Source: Rickettsiales bacterium
Lineage (GTDB): Bacteria; Pseudomonadota; Alphaproteobacteria; Rs-D84
Direction of reading: 5' to 3'
Length of the DNA stretch: 44,461 nucleotides
Assembly: GCA_031288835.1 (NCBI GenBank)
Contig: JAITQO010000004.1
Span: 1 to 44,461 of the forward strand
Shown: in pieces, positions 6,101 to 43,923 of the stretch
Numbering within the stretch: the stretch's first letter is position 1
Layout of the letters: every line of letters begins with the position of its first letter
Program-made: the position numbers and the translations under genes
Notes under the pieces: model-generated
The model's input: only the letters and a program-made list of their open reading frames with translations
Told to the model about the DNA's origin: nothing
The model's database searches: none

Positions 6101-9100
6101 ACCGGAGTTGTTCGTAATGGTTATCGCGTTGCCGACGCACGACGCGTCCGCGCAATTCACGATATTTCCTATGCTTCCGCCGCCCGCGGTCGTGATTGAC
6201 AAGGCGCCGGCGTTCCCTATTCCGCCAAGGCCGACCGCGCCGGACACCGTAGAAAAAGACAGGGTTCCGTAATTGATTATGCTTCCCGTTCCGCTTATGC
6301 CGCCGCCCGAGTAAATCGACAATTGCTTTCCCGCGCCGACATCCACACCGCCGCCGAATATCAGGCTCGAAGCGCTCACCGACGCGCTGGTGACATTGTC
6401 GTCAATCAGAATCCCCGAAGAATTGCCGACAAGCGCGGCGCTGAAATTGCCGCCGACTCCATTATTGAAATTGATTCCGTTTCCTATATTCGCGGCGCCG
6501 GTCACGTTCAGGTTGCCATATGTCTTGATTACCCCCCTGCCGGACTGGAGCAAAGACCCGGCGGTTGTCTTTCCCGCGTTCAGAATAATGGTGTTGGCGC
6601 CGCCGCCGGCTCCCGCGCCGATGGCGGACAATGCGCCGCCAATCGTTATGCCGCCCGCGTTCGACGACTTCAATTCCAATGTTCTGGCCGTATCGCCGGA
6701 GACCAGCACGCCGCCGCCGATACTAATCGTTCCGCCCCCGACATCAATCGACAGCGACGGATTGGCGCCCGAGACGCCTATGTTCATGTTTCCAGGCGCA
6801 TAACTTACCCCCGTTCCCCATATCAGTTCCTTTGCGACGGACAACGACGCAAACCCATCGTTCGCATAATCCACCTTTATGCCGGAGAGTTCGCCGATTA
6901 TGTTCAAGAATCCGCCCGCGCCGACGGATATTCCGTCGTCGACGGACATTATTCCGGCGCTTCCCCCTATGTCCGCGCGGCCGCCGTTCATTATGATGCT
7001 CTGGAAATGATGGTCTGTCGCAAGGTCCAGAGCGGCGTTATGAAAATAAATATGCGCGGTTCCCGCACCGCTTATAAAATCGCCGGCCATCGCCAGTTTG
7101 TTCACGTCAATCCGAAGGGTTCCGTCATTCTCCAAATACCCCATCGTCAGTTTTTGCGCGCCGCTCTGCCCGGCCTGCGTTCCGACCGCGGTCGTTACGG
7201 TCAACGTCCCGTCGTTATCCACATGTCCCAAAACGGCGCCGCCAACGCCATATATCGACATGATTCCGTTATTCTCAACCCTGCCGGCCGACACAACCGT
7301 CCGCGCCTCCAGCGATATGTTTCCGGAATTGCCTACGGTGCCGGAGATACCCATCGTCTCCGCCCCCAAATACATGCTCATCGAGGCGCCGTTCGTAACC
7401 GACGACGCGCTTATGCCGGCGCCGGCGCCCGTTCCCGTCAGTTTCAGATACAATTTCGACATGGTGTTGCCCAACAGGCTCGCCATATAATCAACGCCGT
7501 CGGTGTTCGTAAACGCAAGCGTCCCCGTTTCCAGATAGAAATCCGACGCGTTCGCCTGATTAAATATTCCGCCGAGCGACGTCTTCCCGCTCACAATGGC
7601 GCGGAACGAGCCGTTGTTGCTGAACGTTCCGTCGATTGTCAGATTGCCGAGCGGAGAAATGAAACTCCATTCCCCGGTGTCGACGCCCTTTGATGGGTCG
7701 AGATTGCTATATGTCCAGTTGCCGTTGCCGTCAGACCAATCCCAGCCGAAATGCATCGAGCCATTCAGCATGTTTATGACATTTCCCTTAAACAAGACAT
7801 CGCCTCCGCCGCGCGCGATGATGATTTTTCCGCCTCCGGAATTGTTCGCGTCCCCCCTCACCTCGATATCCCCGCCGGCGGATAAAACGACGTCGTTCGC
7901 CTTGAGGTTGTATAGATATCCGCCGATTGCCAAATCGCCCCCGGCCGTCAATTTGGTTTTCCCGGTGCTTGCGGTGTCGTTGTTCAGAAAACCGGTTGTC
8001 AAATCATCGTCAGCGTTCAAATCCAAAATCTTTCCGCCGTTTTCGATATTTCCAACAATTATGCCGTTCGTCAGGGTCGTCGCGCCCGCGCTGAGGCCGT
8101 TCGCCGTCTTGACCACAATCTCCGCGTCCGCTGCGTTCGCGATATTTCCCGCGTTGAACGACGCGACCATGCCGCCCGCCTGCCCCGCGGCGCCGACATG
8201 AAGTTTCGCGCCCGCCTCCACGCTTATGTTTCCGAATCCATGGGCGTCAAGCGCCGCCTGCAATTCATCCAGCAATTCCGGCGTCACGGCGCCCGCGTTC
8301 GCCGTCAGAATCGCCGCAACGTCCCCAAAGCCGTTCTGCGTCAAAAGCGTCGCGATTGCCGGCGACATCGCCCCCCCGCTCGCAGTTATCTCGCTTTGCA
8401 ATTGGGACGCCAGCGCGCCCCCGCCCCTCGCGGACAAGATATCCTTGAAGACGCCGAGCACCGAGGACATAGGCGGCGGGGCGCCCGAGAACGATATGCC
8501 GCCGAATTCCATCCCGATTCCGTTGAAATCGATGTCGATATAGTCCGAAGTCGAATTGACGCCGTCGATTTCCAACGTCTTTCCGGCCGCCAATTTCAGC
8601 GCGGTCGCGTTGACCGCCAGCCCGGCGCCGACCAATATGCCGCCGCGGCTGCGAATCACATAGTCGGAACCCGCGGCATTCCCGGCAAGCTCGAACCTGC
8701 CGTTCAGCGTTCCGTCCGCGGCATATCCGACATCCATCCGCCCCTTCGCGTCCAGCCCGCCGATTTTCAAAATATTGTTCCCGATATTCGCGGACAACAG
8801 GGATTTCGCGCCGACGACGATTTTTCCATCGACTTCCAACGTATAGCCGGAATCAAGTACCGAATGCCCGCCGAACGTTATGAAATCCCCGCCGATTTCG
8901 ATTCCGCCGCTCGCGGCGAGGATAATCCCGGCGGTGGAGTTTCCGGCGTTGAACGCGGACGTTCCGTTTTTCGTATTGTTCCAAACGCTGCCCGCAATGC
9001 TTAAATCGCCGGATGAGTTCAGATATACGGACGCAATCGAAACGCCGTTGCCCTTGTAGTCATAATACCGCCAGTTGGAAAGGTTCAGAATCGAAACGCC

Positions 9101-9562
9101 GTTCGCATCGGACCCGTTGACGTCAATCCGTCCGGAATCGATTTTCAACAGCGAGCCGGACGTTTGGCTCTGGGCCGGGTCATAGTCCGCGTTTATCGCT
9201 TCGCCCGCGTCGAACAGATAATTGCCGTTCGCGTCCGCAAAACCCGCGCCGTTCCAAATGAATCCGCCGAGCATGACCCCGCCCGGCGTCCCTCCATCCG
9301 ACGGGGCAAGCTCCAAAATGCCGGCATTCCTAATGCTATTGCGCCCGCCCGACGACGACAGCAAATCCACCGCTTTCAACCCGTTCGCCGCCCCGGTCAA
9401 AGTCGTATTGCCCGTGTTTATCAAATCTCCGTTGGGATTGCCGGCCGGGGCCGTGCACGACAACACGCCGTTCGCGTCAATCGTGCAGTTGCTAGGCAAC
9501 GCGGCGTATGCCCCAATGGGGCTGAACAGCAGCGCCAAAACCAGGATTTTTTTCAACCGCAC
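3200..9562 (-). CDS. Giant type Va autotransporter (surface protein)
   Basis: A 2120-residue protein. The signal peptide is MRKL-like: the chain opens MRLKKILVLALL and a cleavage site follows AYA. Residues about 30-1600 are Gly/Asn/Ser-rich short repeats (many of the form GGxxxxxGxxxNxG), as expected for a beta-helical passenger. A linker with helical character (about 1740-1820) precedes a C-terminal barrel of about 290 residues that ends in SMRF, the terminal aromatic residue expected for BAM-dependent insertion. The start is GTG at 9562 with GGGGAG nine bases upstream; the nearby ATG is out of frame. The passenger has very few cysteines, as usual for autotransporters. The ligand or activity is unknown; no protease triad is evident, so adhesion is the default inference. 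A promoter lies at 9590-9618. Confidence 0.92.
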   Translation of the reverse strand: MRLKKILVLALLFSPIGAYAALPSNCTIDANGVLSCTAPAGNPNGDLINTGNTTLTGAANGLKAVDLLSSSGGRNSIRNAGILELAPSDGGTPGGVMLGGFIWNGAGFADANGNYLFDAGEAINADYDPAQSQTSGSLLKIDSGRIDVNGSDANGVSILNLSNWRYYDYKGNGVSIASVYLNSSGDLSIAGSVWNNTKNGTSAFNAGNSTAGIILAASGGIEIGGDFITFGGHSVLDSGYTLEVDGKIVVGAKSLLSANIGNNILKIGGLDAKGRMDVGYAADGTLNGRFELAGNAAGSDYVIRSRGGILVGAGLAVNATALKLAAGKTLEIDGVNSTSDYIDIDFNGIGMEFGGISFSGAPPPMSSVLGVFKDILSARGGGALASQLQSEITASGGAMSPAIATLLTQNGFGDVAAILTANAGAVTPELLDELQAALDAHGFGNISVEAGAKLHVGAAGQAGGMVASFNAGNIANAADAEIVVKTANGLSAGATTLTNGIIVGNIENGGKILDLNADDDLTTGFLNNDTASTGKTKLTAGGDLAIGGYLYNLKANDVVLSAGGDIEVRGDANNSGGGKIIIARGGGDVLFKGNVINMLNGSMHFGWDWSDGNGNWTYSNLDPSKGVDTGEWSFISPLGNLTIDGTFSNNGSFRAIVSGKTSLGGIFNQANASDFYLETGTLAFTNTDGVDYMASLLGNTMSKLYLKLTGTGAGAGISASSVTNGASMSMYLGAETMGISGTVGNSGNISLEARTVVSAGRVENNGIMSIYGVGGAVLGHVDNDGTLTVTTAVGTQAGQSGAQKLTMGYLENDGTLRIDVNKLAMAGDFISGAGTAHIYFHNAALDLATDHHFQSIIMNGGRADIGGSAGIMSVDDGISVGAGGFLNIIGELSGIKVDYANDGFASLSVAKELIWGTGVSYAPGNMNIGVSGANPSLSIDVGGGTISIGGGVLVSGDTARTLELKSSNAGGITIGGALSAIGAGAGGGANTIILNAGKTTAGSLLQSGRGVIKTYGNLNVTGAANIGNGINFNNGVGGNFSAALVGNSSGILIDDNVTSASVSASSLIFGGGVDVGAGKQLSIYSGGGISGTGSIINYGTLSFSTVSGAVGLGGIGNAGALSITTAGGGSIGNIVNCADASCVGNAITITNNSGSLLAMGDITNNAGAMAISNASNYWMIGAIAMNGGSMTLTGTGATIGSLTHTAGSIDWNGLTLKSQNDIALAGGLAFGSATDPYALKLSASGGTQTLDVGGNMNVAGALTVYSGNAKIKGYGGKILSAETYSAQAGSSFALDGAGTFKITGSASSTATNTFVNSGSTSISAGNGIVVGKGIVNSGSLLFGAADLLDIADIDNSGAFNLEVGNGTATLGKIVNSGTMNLTVWNTVLANKEDALIIGGINGMSGSLSITGNGFKSLGDISVNHIVQGVAGGSSSISIINGGYDFTISMADGKTLHTDGSISGKLGHTLRLNTSVLDVGGSLSANSGRIIVSATNYLSGCVTGICSLPNGVDYSSSGGWAPFLNVDIGGSVTGGVEFLGLGRMRIGGDYLFNNRSKLLFAVLPKGNGGSSVPNQYDFYVPIERDANNAVVLNTTNAKPIIDVGGTFNLDFHGANNALQRQNDFKDGSIGLTIFDFDTVKDRDVAVWLLQASEIKSFDLLPRSLNVYFCNADMTLCFDYLGAAGFDPNGVPVYMRQDGDSLFAVFDRQYGGLIEMFSVREKIQPLKPDFNIDNSAGAIDNWAHYGLLRAKFYNNNPIEALKEAYRGTIYSNMAEELYNRMEVYHNDNKPLPLHEFSRLFAPTEGGQFAHLVNSAERMAQNSLQKRMVDESLWTRNRARSKLWVDANYGIGSLSSPEGGSIKDETMSAAAGYDMQIGRGLIIGFNAGMTMADSNGKQTLDLSYGSKSITGGRNTKASGTSVNAGGYMIYKMADSAQLYISGNFYSHKLGLDKTHDYMANIGGDGQSSGFGGEIGIIHSISGQYMVGNVSVRFAQNKGFEFSETAGGADYMSIKQDKYATVAPGYSLMLQKRIYLQPTFIMRPYLSVGGEYEIVGMGDRIEYMFASGDAYSDYKIDTSPLWLTGRAGVEFLTIGGLQFGVGYGYHHNAAVKTHNAHFGMSMRF

Positions 9563-9589
9563 GCCAAGACTCTCCCCATGATTTGTATC

Positions 9590-9618
9590 ATTTTACCATA
9601 CCGCCAATTTTTTGCCAA
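9590..9618 (-). promoter_or_regulatory. Promoter of the autotransporter gene
   Basis: Read on the minus strand: TTGGCA, 17-nt spacer, TAAAAT, giving a leader of about 20 nt that contains the GGGGAG ribosome-binding site. Confidence 0.6.
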
Positions 9619-9645
9619 ACGAAAAATGCTTGTTTTCATTACTTT

Positions 9646-10236
9646 TCACCTTGTTTTTGAAATAAAATCCATCATTCTTTTATCGAAAATCTCCCCGTCG
9701 GAACTGCACAGCATGAACCAATCCGGATGCAGTCCGGCGCGAAGAAAATCAATCGGATTGCATGTGTTTTCCGTCCTTACGGATATGTCGTTCGGCATGT
9801 TCCGGCGCTTTTCCGCGCACGACAAGTCCGCGGCTGGATTCAAGAAATACGCAATCCTGAAATCATAGCGACGCCCGTTTTCGTCGCACCAGTCAATCAT
9901 CTGCCGGACGTATTTTGGCTCTATCACGTCATAGACCAGATTTTTGTCGCCGTTTCGGAGAATTTCCCGCTTTTCTACGCCATACAGCCATTTCGGCTCG
10001 CCCGGCTTCCAAAACTGCCGGTTCACGAATAGTTTTGCGGCAAACTCCTCCGTATCGAAAAACCGCTCGTCGCGGAAGTAATAATCGCGCCCCTCGGCCT
10101 CGCCTTCGCGCGGCTTCCGCGTGGTTGCCGAGACAAGTTTGCGGAACTTTCCGAGCGGCTTCAGATAATTTTCCCAAAAGTATCCTTTTCCGCTTCCGGA
10201 CATGCCGGTCAGAAACAGCAAAACCTTCCTTTCCAT
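9646..10236 (-). CDS. Guanylate-kinase-like P-loop protein
   Basis: A 196-residue protein. A Walker A motif, GMSGSGKG, lies near residue 10. A guanylate-kinase GMP-binding segment follows (TTRKPREGE, then GRDYYF), and a YGVEK motif corresponds to the Y-G-T/V segment of Gmk. The C-terminal half diverges strongly from canonical Gmk, and RRNMPNDISVRTENT stands where the lid arginines would be. It may phosphorylate a nucleotide other than GMP, or be a specialised paralogue. The ATG at 10236 has no Shine-Dalgarno sequence. A possible -10 box (TATTTT) ends 7 nt before it, fed by the palindrome shared with yraN. A true gmk, if present, lies outside the window. Confidence 0.75.
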   Translation of the reverse strand: MERKVLLFLTGMSGSGKGYFWENYLKPLGKFRKLVSATTRKPREGEAEGRDYYFRDERFFDTEEFAAKLFVNRQFWKPGEPKWLYGVEKREILRNGDKNLVYDVIEPKYVRQMIDWCDENGRRYDFRIAYFLNPAADLSCAEKRRNMPNDISVRTENTCNPIDFLRAGLHPDWFMLCSSDGEIFDKRMMDFISKTR

Positions 10237-34577: not shown

Positions 34578-35285
34578 TTATCTTTCGTTTACGATTTTTC
34601 TCATCACCGGTTCTACAAACGGAGAATGGCATTTCGACCTTGCGGTTTTCGGAGTCGTGTTAGTCTCTTTAGCGAATTTCTTTACGAATTCGTAATGTCT
34701 CGGAAAATATCCTTGCGCACCAATGGTAATCTCTCCGCTGACGAAACGTCGGGCGGCCCGGATTTCAAGGCTGCGCGCTTTATTGCTTATCTTTTCATAA
34801 TGCGACATATCAAAATACCCGTCCGTCATCAACTTTTTTACGCCATCCATAACGATTTGCGAAAAATGCGGTTTGTCCTGTTCGTATAACATGCTGCGGA
34901 AGACATCCTCGCTGACCTTGACATGCTTCGCGACCGCGGCGTGCAAGTCGGATATCGAAAGAAACGTTCCGTCCAATCCTGATGCCGACAATTTATCCAA
35001 AACTTGCTTGATTTGCACTTCCTTGAATCCATATTTTGGAGACAAATCCAGGTTCAGGTATTCCGAATCAATCAGGTCGGCAATTCGCCTTTTTACGGCA
35101 AACACCCCGCGTTTTGGCGAATTTAGGCAGCATTTTCCGCGCATAGTGCCAATCTTCGCGGCCGGATTCAGCGTATTGATGGCGCGGAACGCTTCCTCAT
35201 ACGTGCAGAACTTCGGCATTTCACCCAAAACCTGCAATTCAAGCAAGACCTCCGCAGCATCCATGATAATTTTAATCGTATCCAT
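34578..35285 (-). CDS. Unknown cytoplasmic protein with strong divergent promoter
   Basis: A 235-residue protein with no signal or transmembrane segment. It is helical and Lys/Arg-rich with TYEEAFRAINTLNPAAKIG, a KCCLNSPKRGVFAVKRRI segment and a C-terminal NTTPKTARSKCHSPF segment, possibly a nucleic-acid-binding fold. I recognise no family. The gene is more A+T-rich than its neighbours. The ATG at 35285 is only 10 nt from a perfect TATAAT and lacks a Shine-Dalgarno sequence; a second ATG is at 35264. It is divergent from a structured RNA gene and convergent with holA. Confidence 0.65.
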   Translation of the reverse strand: MDTIKIIMDAAEVLLELQVLGEMPKFCTYEEAFRAINTLNPAAKIGTMRGKCCLNSPKRGVFAVKRRIADLIDSEYLNLDLSPKYGFKEVQIKQVLDKLSASGLDGTFLSISDLHAAVAKHVKVSEDVFRSMLYEQDKPHFSQIVMDGVKKLMTDGYFDMSHYEKISNKARSLEIRAARRFVSGEITIGAQGYFPRHYEFVKKFAKETNTTPKTARSKCHSPFVEPVMRKIVNER

Positions 35286-35295
35286 AACAACATCA

Positions 35296-35325
35296 ATTAT
35301 ACTATACCAAATATAACTCTGTCAA
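35296..35325 (-). promoter_or_regulatory. Near-consensus promoter of the unknown gene
   Basis: Read on the minus strand: perfect TTGACA, 18-nt spacer, perfect TATAAT. The -10 box ends 10 nt before the ATG, implying a leader of only a few bases. Confidence 0.75.
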
Positions 35326-35374: not shown

Positions 35375-35403
35375 TTGACAAATATGATTTTGTGTATTAT
35401 ATT
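35375..35403 (+). promoter_or_regulatory. Strong promoter of the structured RNA
   Basis: Perfect TTGACA, 17-nt spacer, TATATT. The predicted start is near 35409-35411, just where the first helix of the RNA begins. Confidence 0.75.
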
Positions 35404-35409
35404 TTCGAC

Positions 35410-35593
35410 AATCAAGGGGAACCTAGACTCCCTCCTACATTCTCTCTCCTCTAGCCCCCTTGATTACTTAGAGGATAGAGAGCGGCGAGAGTTTTGGGAC
35501 AACCTTTTTTGCTCTTTTTGTAAAAAGAGCGTTTTCTCCTTTCCTTCCTTTTGTAGGTTGTCCCATAAAAATCGGCTTCGGCCGATTTTTATT
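35410..35593 (+). ncRNA. Structured small RNA, class unknown
   Basis: About 185 nt from its own promoter to an intrinsic terminator. Helix A: 35410-35419 pairs with 35456-35465 (10 bp, perfect). Helix B: 35441-35452 pairs with 35470-35481 (11 of 12). A and B interlock, forming a pseudoknot or two alternative folds. Helix C: 35495-35505 pairs with 35555-35565 (11 bp, perfect) and encloses hairpin D, GCTCTTTTT/AAAAAGAGC, at 35511-35530. The terminator has a UUCG loop. C/U-rich stretches (CTCCCTCCT, TCTCTCTCCTCT, TCTCCTTTCCTTCC) could pair with Shine-Dalgarno sequences. It does not fit 6S, SRP, tmRNA or RNase P RNA. It ends about 225 bp before rne and contains no convincing open frame. Confidence 0.7.
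35567..35593 (+). terminator. Intrinsic terminator with UUCG loop
   Basis: AAAAATCGGC-TTCG-GCCGATTTTT: a 10-bp stem with a UUCG tetraloop and U tract at the end of the structured RNA. Confidence 0.9.
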
Positions 35594-35639: not shown

Positions 35640-35668
35640 TGGACAAACCAGAAAATTTATGCTAAACT
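35640..35668 (+). promoter_or_regulatory. Probable rne promoter
   Basis: TGGACA, 17-nt spacer, TAAACT, preceded by a TG-like extended -10 base pair. This would give rne a leader of about 145 nt with AAAGGA before its ATG, independent of the upstream RNA terminator. I see no other feature between 35594 and 35820. Confidence 0.45.
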
Positions 35669-35819
35669 CCTAAAATCAGCAAAAACATGGTGCAAATGTT
35701 TGCAATTTTTTGTCTTTTGGCGATGATTGTTATCACAGCGCTGATTCCAACAATGGCGGTTGCCTGCGGAATCCAAAAGATACGGCCGTGCTTTATGCTG
35801 AAAAACAAAGGATTTGATT

Positions 35820-37613
35820 ATGAAAAATATTTATATAGATGCGGCCCACCAGGAGGAGACCCGCGTCGTCGTGATGGATGGAAACAGGGTATCTGACTTT
35901 GATATAGAAACCACAACCAAGCCGCAAATCAAGGGAAACGTTTATCTGGCAAAAGTCACGCGCATAGAGCCGTCGTTGCAGGCCGCGTTCATAAACTACG
36001 GCGCCGACAAGAACGGATTTCTGCCATTTTCGGAAATACATCCGGATTACTATCAGGTCGATACGGAAAAGAAAAAACGCATTCTGGAACTGGCGCATGC
36101 GAATATTGTCGACGACGATGAAGATTTTGACGACGAAAACGCCGATGTCGCCGAATACGACGACGAGTCGGCGGGCGAAGACAACAAAGAGCTGACCAAA
36201 CGCGCCAGCGAGTTCAAGATTCAGGATGTCATAAAAACCAACCAACTCATTCTGGTTCAGGGCGTGAAGGAAGAGCGCGGAAACAAGGGCGCGTCAATGA
36301 CGACATTCCTGTCGCTGGCGGGACGATTCGCCGTTTTGATGCCGAACAGCCGCAAACGGAACGGATACGGAATCTCCAAGAAAATCTCGGACCGGGCCGA
36401 AAGGGCGCGCCTGCGCGATATTCTGCACAAATTAAAGATTCCGAAGGGGATGACCCTGGTTCTGCGCACGGCCGCGTTCGGCGCGGACGCGGGGGAAATT
36501 GAAAAAGATTACGACTTTCTGGTCAGCGAATGGAATGAAATCAGAAAGAACACCCTGGAGTCGACGGCGCCGTCAATCATTCATGCCGAGGATTCGCTGC
36601 TGGTGCGCGTGATTCGAGACTTCATAACCGACCCGAACGACGCCTTGACGATACAAGGAGACGAGGCGCTTGATTCGGCGATTCGATATTACCAGCAGTT
36701 ATACGGGAAAAAACCCGGGAAAAAACAGATTGTCAAATACAACGACCTGGCGAAGCCGCTGTTTTCGAGAATGGGAATCGAGCGGCAGCTGGAAGGGCTT
36801 CACGGCCCGTATGTGACGCTGCCGAGCGGCGGTTCGCTGGTCATCAACCAGACCGAGGCGATGGTGACGATTGATGTGAACTCTTCCAAAGCAATTAACG
36901 AAACGGACATCGAGAAGACCGCAATCGCCACGAATATGGAGGCGGCCGAGGAAATAGGGCTGCAATTGCGGCTGCGCGACCTGGCCGGAATAATCGCAAT
37001 CGACTTCATCGACATGGAGGACGAGCGCAACAACCGGAAACTGGAGCAAAAAGTGCGCGAGGTCATGCGGCGCGACCGCGCAAGGACGCAGGTGTCGAAA
37101 ATAAACTCGTTCGGCGTCCTGATGCTGTCGCGCCAGCGCATGCGCTCGTCGTTCATAGAAAGTTCGTACGTCCAATGCCCGTATTGCAGGGGCTCCGGCA
37201 TAGTACCCAGCATACAGACGGCCGCGCTGATACTGTTCCGGCATTTGCAGGACAAAATCGCGGCGAAAACGGCGGGCAAGTTCATAATGACGGTTCCGAC
37301 CGACATAGCGATTTACCTGTTGAACCAAAAACGCGCGGAGATAAACGAATTAGAGCAGGAGTTCGGCACGGAAATCGCGATTGTCGGAGATGATTCGATG
37401 CTGAACATCGCGGACTATACGATTCAGCGCGCCGGAAAGGACGAGCCGAAGACGGACGACCTGCTGAGCGCGCACAAGCCGGCGACAGAGGTGAAAAAGA
37501 AAAACGAATCGCATCAGAACGCCAGGAGAACCGTGATAGAAACCCGCAGAAAGATAAAACCGAAACAGAGGCAGAAAAAGAAAAATAGCATCTGGCGGAA
37601 AATCATTGGATAA
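35820..37613 (+). CDS. rne: Ribonuclease E/G
   Basis: A 597-residue endoribonuclease of the RNase E/G family. The S1 region (about 35-165) is interrupted by an acidic insert (VDDDEDFDDENADV), as in alphaproteobacterial RNase E. The catalytic aspartates lie in TIDVNSSK (about 351) and IAIDFIDM (about 395). The zinc-link motif is QCPYCRGSG (about 452). The C-terminal extension is short and Lys/Arg-rich, so the long scaffold that binds degradosome partners in larger RNase E proteins is missing or very reduced. I chose the ATG at 35820 with AAAGGA seven bases upstream. The BepA-like protease gene follows after about 80 bp on the same strand. Confidence 0.93.
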   Translation: MKNIYIDAAHQEETRVVVMDGNRVSDFDIETTTKPQIKGNVYLAKVTRIEPSLQAAFINYGADKNGFLPFSEIHPDYYQVDTEKKKRILELAHANIVDDDEDFDDENADVAEYDDESAGEDNKELTKRASEFKIQDVIKTNQLILVQGVKEERGNKGASMTTFLSLAGRFAVLMPNSRKRNGYGISKKISDRAERARLRDILHKLKIPKGMTLVLRTAAFGADAGEIEKDYDFLVSEWNEIRKNTLESTAPSIIHAEDSLLVRVIRDFITDPNDALTIQGDEALDSAIRYYQQLYGKKPGKKQIVKYNDLAKPLFSRMGIERQLEGLHGPYVTLPSGGSLVINQTEAMVTIDVNSSKAINETDIEKTAIATNMEAAEEIGLQLRLRDLAGIIAIDFIDMEDERNNRKLEQKVREVMRRDRARTQVSKINSFGVLMLSRQRMRSSFIESSYVQCPYCRGSGIVPSIQTAALILFRHLQDKIAAKTAGKFIMTVPTDIAIYLLNQKRAEINELEQEFGTEIAIVGDDSMLNIADYTIQRAGKDEPKTDDLLSAHKPATEVKKKNESHQNARRTVIETRRKIKPKQRQKKKNSIWRKIIG

Positions 37614-42904: not shown

Positions 42905-42942
42905 TGATACGAGAATGTGATTGGGGGATAGAGGAGAGAACT

Positions 42943-43923
42943 ATGCCAACAAAAAAAACAAAGAAAATCAAAATCGTTTCCGTCGGGGAATCCGTCGCGA
43001 AAGAAACTGCGAAAAAGACAAAATCGCGCGTTGTGATTTACCTATACTGGGTGGCAATCGCATTGTTCGTCGGGGCGACGTGCTATATGCTGTATGTCAA
43101 GAAGAGCAGCAAGGACAATGTTGAGATTATTGATTCGTCGATGCCGACGGAAGAGCCGCTGAAAGGAGAAGGCGACGAATCGGCGGCATACCGCGAGATG
43201 GGAAAGCAGAAATTGCTGGATGGCGACACAGTCGGCGCGCTGAACGACTTTACGATTGCGATTGAGAAAAACGCGAATGAACCGTTCAACTATATATACA
43301 GGGGCGAGGTCTTGATGACAGGCAGCAATTTCGATGCGGCCATCGCGGACTTTGATACGGCGTCCAGAATCGACCCGAAAGCGACAGCGGCGTATTATGA
43401 CCGAGCGCTCGCGAATATAAAACTCGAAAAACTGCATGAAGCAAAGAGCGATTTGGACAAGGCGCTGGACACGCTCGATTACAACGAAACGTCGGATATT
43501 TCCGCGCATGACGTTTATGCAAAGCGCGCCCAAGTCAATCTGTGGCTGCGCGACTGGAACGCGGCCGAGGCCGACTATACGGCCGCGATTGCGAAAAACA
43601 CGGGCGAATTGGATTGGACGGATTACACAGGCCGTGCCGAGGCGCGCACGAATAAAGGAGATTACGAGCGCGCAGTTGCCGACTATATCTCGTCTGTAAC
43701 GATTATTTCGGACAAAATACAAAAGACACCGGATGACAAAACGCGTGAAAATATGTCGCGCCAAGCGATGGGGTATTTCGAGAAAAGCGGAGCGCTGCGC
43801 GTAAAACTCGGACAGATGGACTTGGCGCTGCAAGATTTGCAGGCGGCGCACACATTGGCGATTGCATTGGGAGACGAGGAAAATCGCATGCGTTTGCAAA
43901 TATTAATGTCAAGCATAAAGTAA
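42943..43923 (+). CDS. Membrane-anchored TPR protein
   Basis: A 326-residue protein: a Lys-rich cytoplasmic N-terminus, one transmembrane helix at about 30-52, then four to six tetratricopeptide repeats from about 80 to the end (AAYREMGKQKLLDGDTVGAL, NFDAAIADFDTASRIDP and YYDRALANIKLEKLHEA are typical units). The TPR part should lie in the periplasm and serve protein contacts. The partner is unknown. The ATG at 42943 has GAGGAGA upstream, a rare strong ribosome-binding site here. It is the last complete gene before the repeat-rich end of the window. Confidence 0.85.
   Translation: MPTKKTKKIKIVSVGESVAKETAKKTKSRVVIYLYWVAIALFVGATCYMLYVKKSSKDNVEIIDSSMPTEEPLKGEGDESAAYREMGKQKLLDGDTVGALNDFTIAIEKNANEPFNYIYRGEVLMTGSNFDAAIADFDTASRIDPKATAAYYDRALANIKLEKLHEAKSDLDKALDTLDYNETSDISAHDVYAKRAQVNLWLRDWNAAEADYTAAIAKNTGELDWTDYTGRAEARTNKGDYERAVADYISSVTIISDKIQKTPDDKTRENMSRQAMGYFEKSGALRVKLGQMDLALQDLQAAHTLAIALGDEENRMRLQILMSSIK

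Follow-up and report, generated by a model that had tools for sequence, protein, structure and literature searches.

Within the window (the whole stretch of DNA analysed here, 44,461 nucleotides), positions 35375-35593 are predicted to form a complete transcription unit, in which a structured RNA about 185 nt long is flanked by a promoter and a terminator with a UUCG loop. We think it probable that its product is a stand-alone, trans-acting small RNA (sRNA), which acts independently of Hfq and whose pyrimidine loops block the Shine-Dalgarno (SD) regions of a set of mRNAs. The basis for this reading is the anatomy of the RNA, covariation, conservation across the order, the absence of Hfq and an excess of complementary ribosome-binding sites (RBSs). 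The features of the unit are as follows:

35375-35403, forward strand: sigma-70-type promoter, TTGACA (35375-35380), 17-nt spacer, TATATT (35398-35403), 11 of 12 consensus matches
35409-35592, forward strand: predicted small RNA, starting roughly 7 nt past the -10 box and ending with the terminator
35410-35465, forward strand: hairpin A, stem 35410-35419/35456-35465 (10 bp) plus 35423-35427/35450-35454
35427-35450, forward strand: loop 1, ACUCCCUCCUACAUUCUCUCUCCU, two anti-SD segments; 22 unpaired nt and the closing pair
35468-35482, forward strand: 3' side of helix B, TTAGAGGATAGAGAG, which could mask loop 1 in the window species
35496-35564, forward strand: hairpin C, stem 35496-35505/35555-35564 (10 bp)
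35510-35531, forward strand: inner hairpin of hairpin C, 9 bp, 35510-35518/35523-35531
35532-35552, forward strand: loop 2, UUUUCUCCUUUCCUUCCUUUU, second anti-SD segment
35565-35592, forward strand: intrinsic terminator, UUCG loop, 12-bp stem 35565-35576/35581-35592, U-rich 3' arm

Both ends of the unit had been recognized in the original prediction, which was made from the window alone: the near-consensus promoter and the UUCG-loop terminator are present as described, and helix A, helix C and the terminator had been placed accurately to within a base or two. A TTGAC-type -35 box and a -10 box are found at the matching place in all RNA members listed, and every complete member has a terminator at the same place, consisting of a GC stem and a U run, with differing stem sequences. 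The 187-nt RNA of the window folds with -65.4 kcal/mol (z = -4.85), a value equalled by none of 200 shuffles. Members from outside the window's genus usually carry one additional 5' hairpin.

Helix A has the predicted length of 10 bp and is extended by CUAGA/UCUAG around loop 1. Across 25 members, 13 of its 17 pairs show compensatory changes, and 87% of its cells are paired; sliding the partner reduces this share to 53% or less. A long-range helix enclosing a hairpin had also been proposed; helix C and its inner hairpin are indeed present, and both sides change in all eight modelled pairs across members, but the helix comprises 10 bp instead of 11. The C/U-rich stretches noted at the outset are confirmed, and two of them show the strongest conservation anywhere in the RNA. 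Loop 1, ACUCCCUCCUACAUUCUCUCUCCU, is identical in all aligned members of the window's family, its core CUCCCUCCU-N4/5-UCUCUCUCCUC is common to other families too, and its reverse complement includes GGAGAGAGAAUG. In loop 2, a CUCCUUUCCUUCC-type motif is retained in nearly all members. Both loops are composed of pyrimidines only and resemble the anti-SD end typical of 16S rRNA.

A third helix, of 12 bp and interlocking with helix A, had been suggested as a possible alternative state. Helix B does exist in the window, as 6+8 bp (35440-35454/35468-35482), and only 0.3% of shuffles pair equally well. It was sought and found absent in the congeners L004 and L005 and was not seen in the folds of other genera; in the congener L003, loop 1 has a different pairing (1% of shuffles). 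The interlocking of A and B is thus not a conserved architecture, and an A-B pseudoknot or switch was rejected as a property of the family. Across the family, the predicted folds show an unpaired loop in helix A. For the window RNA, the predicted energy of the B-state (-65.4 kcal/mol) is 5 kcal/mol below that of the A-state (-60.4 kcal/mol), so that a self-sequestered form is possible at the species level. Such an RNA would be a switch, in which helix B masks loop 1 and a target or signal is needed to expose it; the energy difference, a pairing that beats 99.7% of shuffles and the alternative pairing in L003 all speak for it, but we consider it rather unlikely, as the absence of helix B in two congeners and other genera shows that masking is not a family property.

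The RNA occurs in uncultured alphaproteobacteria of rumen, gut and termites, whose genomes measure about 0.6-1.1 Mb and whose order may be RF32 of GTDB; the window's congeners are metagenome assemblies and may be termite-derived. A plain DNA search gave matches to the RNA in 33 of 60 relatives, all belonging to the same family. The covariance model from homologous loci, which had been suggested as a check, was built from 25 members; it matches the window at 35403-35593 with 104.5 bits. Of 201 genomes in the order, 170 contain the RNA according to this model, with few exceptions as a single copy, and about 280 alphaproteobacteria sampled outside the order gave no match. When the model was used with strict filters on 289 genomes sampled across the class, no match was obtained outside the window's family; laxer filters and inspection by eye added homologues from four or more families of the order beyond the window's own (f2-f5), where the same loop is carried on unrelated stem sequences:

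Family f2: L062, L072
Family f3: L064
Family f4: L066, L068, L070
Family f5: L063

Weak model matches in f1, f4 and f6 (e.g. L065, L067, L069, L083 and L085) were also inspected and are not members. A comparison with Rfam, as initially advised, gave no family match: the window RNA is without a match at gathering score, and no credible sRNA family of this kind is found among matches up to E = 10.

The gene that follows the RNA in the window encodes an RNase:

35814-37613, forward strand: rne (RNase E/G; PF10150, 6e-84), a neighbour that is not part of the RNA unit

In E. coli, rne is autoregulated through its own 5' leader, and the original prediction had considered the RNA as a possible regulated leader or attenuator of rne. 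The two adjoin each other, with rne 3' of the RNA and on the same strand, in two of four congeners (the window and L005), but rne is not adjacent in L003, L004 or any other genus examined, where the conserved RNA has other neighbours. In addition, the strong terminator and a promoter-like site at 35640-35668 (9 of 12 consensus matches) separate the RNA from rne. We therefore regard the leader reading as extremely improbable; as an identity for the RNA it is contradicted by synteny, since homologous loci are mostly without an adjacent rne. The alternative offered alongside it, a stand-alone sRNA with anti-SD stretches, has gained from the same comparison: the RNA has its own promoter and terminator, covarying hairpins and conserved C/U loops, and is conserved apart from its neighbours, as expected for a trans-encoded sRNA gene. 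On the other side of the RNA, a perfect TTGACA-18-TATAAT promoter (35296-35325, reverse strand) lies ahead of a divergent gene (34578-35285), whose 235-aa product has no Pfam match.

Hfq was found in none of 54 genomes of the order and in all six alphaproteobacteria of other orders used as outgroups; ProQ was not detected in the order, and the outgroups were likewise negative. With neither protein detected, the mechanism that we propose is an Hfq-independent block of translation initiation similar to that of alpha-r14. In the proposed model, two stable and freely drifting stems would present two nearly invariant pyrimidine loops: loop 1 would pair with (AGA)GGAGAGAGA-AUG RBSs, and the partners of loop 2 would probably be AAGGAAAGGAGAA-type sites. 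Such pairing would stop 30S binding without Hfq, and decay of the mRNA might follow, a step that is purely conjectural. The predicted targets comprise a small Cro/C1-type helix-turn-helix (HTH) regulator, several envelope proteins and, from a phage-derived cluster, a histone-like gene (HC2). We infer from sequence that the RNA is expressed, that it pairs in the cell and in which direction it regulates.

Several known sRNAs combine conserved unpaired motifs with variable stems. The best match in design is provided by alpha-r14/NfeR1 (SmelA075), which, like SmelA099, is an sRNA of Rhizobiales (PMC10746234, PMC3927594). It is Hfq-independent, measures 120-190 nt and carries ultraconserved anti-SD loops on several hairpins whose stems vary greatly; it has multiple mRNA targets and a feedback with a transcription regulator (PMC10746234, PMC3927594). 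Alpha-r14 is defined by three hairpins each with an identical CCUCCUCCC loop (PMC10746234), and in these Rhizobiales RNAs the loop recurs unchanged in three or four hairpins. The RNA described here is also alphaproteobacterial and has variable stems and conserved anti-SD loops, but in place of repeated CCUCCUCCC loops it has the long two-part ACUCCCUCCUACAUUCUCUCUCCU and the distinct UUUUCUCCUUUCCUUCCUUUU; it belongs to another order, matches no described sRNA family in Rfam and is linked to a phage-derived cluster in other families. Its loop sequence and the Rfam result thus place it outside alpha-r14, and it appears to work like alpha-r14 yet to form a separate family. Yfr1/Yfr10 of cyanobacteria is an almost universal sRNA with an ultraconserved single-stranded pyrimidine-rich motif, drifting stems and many targets (PMC6778093). 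It resembles our RNA as a near-universal single RNA with these traits but differs in phylum, motif and size, and Rfam suggests no homology. The alphaproteobacterial trans-sRNAs AbcR1/AbcR2 also use anti-SD segments and act on translation initiation regions (PMC8844928, PMC3927594), have been contrasted with the Hfq-independent NfeR1 (PMC10746234) and have no sequence match to this RNA. As a near-universal single-copy RNA with a conserved 22-nt loop and predicted targets, the RNA of this order offers a direct way to test how base-pairing sRNAs function in bacteria that lack Hfq and ProQ.

Complements of loop 1 are overrepresented at start codons. In the near-complete genomes G035 and G014, GGAGAGAG is the outstanding word of its own composition upstream of start codons, with 8 occurrences in G035 (mean of same-composition words 1.1) and 11 in G014 (mean 1.6), and the surplus is upheld by whole-genome counts. 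Across 54 genomes of the order there are 168 GGAGAGAGA-N0-4-ATG sites, or about 136 after subtraction of one self-match per RNA-bearing genome of the window's family, compared to 19 and 20 occurrences of two same-composition words, the only two controls counted in this cross-genome comparison. In the six outgroup genomes the three words give 14, 16 and 17, with no excess of GGAGAGAGA; the difference between order and outgroups has a Fisher p = 2e-9, a value that ignores shared descent. Other tests are less distinctive: when loops were permuted with the core preserved, 2-5 of 40 permutations equalled the pairing energy of the 3' half of loop 1, which is only suggestive; conservation of the target word between orthologues is real, yet no stronger than that of ordinary SD (control) words; and hydrophobic N termini among the targets are a trend only (p = 0.06 and 0.13). 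The surplus also bears on the idea that the RNA mainly binds a protein or the ribosome as a decoy (e.g. ribosomal protein S1 or a cold-shock protein) and not mRNAs. The invariance of the 22-nt loop, which exceeds the needs of a short seed, and the pyrimidine-only loops would fit such a role, but it fails to predict exact loop complements at start codons, and we think it unlikely. As a side observation, one 95% complete genome (G006; family f1, genus g3), in which no RNA was found, keeps the split terminase described below and has a single GGAGAGAGA-N0-4-ATG site, making it a possible natural knock-out for comparison.

For the mRNA-directed sRNA that we favour, the clearest single predicted target, and a recurrent candidate, is the small Cro/C1-type HTH gene, which in genera g10 and g7 lies divergently about 260 nt upstream of the RNA. 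Its domain match (PF13443, E = 0.0035) is just below Pfam's cut-off. In many members its RBS is AGAGGAGAGAGAAAAATG, complementary to loop 1, and the pairing reaches -22.9 kcal/mol, with the best 1% of all genes beginning at -19.6; in about half of the species the site pairs weakly with the RNA. In G014 the HTH homologue is located on a different contig from the RNA, and its RBS still contains AGGAGAGAGAAATG. Within the window, a predicted target is found downstream of rne:

42933-43920, forward strand: membrane protein with TPR domains, AGAGGAGAGA just upstream of its ATG at 42943

Here, AGAGGAGAGA is a 10-nt complement of loop 1, and orthologous start regions pair with the RNA at -18.4 (G035) and -13.9 kcal/mol (G014). 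Further candidates include OMP barrels, an OmpA-domain protein, a TrkA-domain Na/H exchanger and a secreted protein about 900 aa long. In f4 and G014, the phage-derived cluster contributes another candidate, an HC2 histone-like gene. This last, lysine-rich (histone H1/HC2-like) gene has an RBS complementary to the RNA loop at the following places:

L259:17017, reverse strand
L261:2606, forward strand
L268:3680, forward strand
L360:7233-7844, reverse strand

The phage-derived cluster is present across the order and includes T7-like scaffold, capsid, tail, tail fibre, terminase and portal genes. The ATPase half of the terminase large subunit is a separate open frame in most genomes of the order; in one outgroup genome the terminase is unsplit. 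The cluster with its terminase split into ATPase and nuclease halves is found at:

L257:1907-13845
L259:4553-18319
L258, L260, L261, L262, L256 and L265

In f2, f4 and f5, about 100-190 nt separate the stop codon of the ATPase half from the RNA loop downstream. The RNA sits between the two halves in f2 and f5, where the nuclease half comes immediately afterwards; in f4 the nuclease half is several kb further on, and in f3 the RNA is within the same cluster. In genera g10 and g7 of f1, RNA and terminase are about 8 kb apart, and in G014, G001 and other genomes the two are on different contigs. The cluster looks like a domesticated, gene-transfer-agent-like element, for which our literature search found no description in this bacterial group. 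It may be compared to FpGTA of Faecalibacterium, a podovirus-like gene transfer agent (PMC12946183). As in gene transfer agents, a phage-derived structural cluster is kept vertically and no replication genes are present in the part seen; it differs in being T7-like and alphaproteobacterial, with a split terminase and an adjacent RNA gene.

The packaging RNA of phi29 relies on loop-loop contacts. A structural or packaging role of this kind in the T7-like cluster is suggested by the position of the RNA past the ATPase half or within the cluster in f2-f5, but we consider it very improbable: both loops are pyrimidine-only and so cannot pair with each other to build an RNA-RNA ring, terminase and RNA are unlinked in several genera, and the surplus of complementary RBSs would be left unexplained. 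We tentatively raise the possibility that the RNA is the ancestral regulator of the domesticated, T7-like split-terminase cluster of the order, repressing the cluster-linked Cro/C1-type regulator and HC2, and that it subsequently took on a wider role in envelope regulation in bacteria without Hfq. Lying, in other families, next to the split terminase of a T7-like cluster that is passed on vertically, the RNA hints that RNA regulation and a podovirus-type, gene-transfer-agent-like element might be connected; if the ancestral role holds, a small RNA would be wired into such an element, an arrangement undescribed in the literature searched.

Two further arrangements were observed at these loci. 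In f1, a dnaB-like helicase gene and two other genes on the opposite strand lie between the terminase halves, yet both halves stay open:

L265:4064-8846
L256:3584-7835
L270:14342-19144

In f4, the ATPase half is followed by at least two RNAs arranged in tandem; their anti-SD loops are similar, and each seems to have a promoter and a terminator of its own:

L267, around 8745-9774
L261, 9354-9481
L259, 10088-10229
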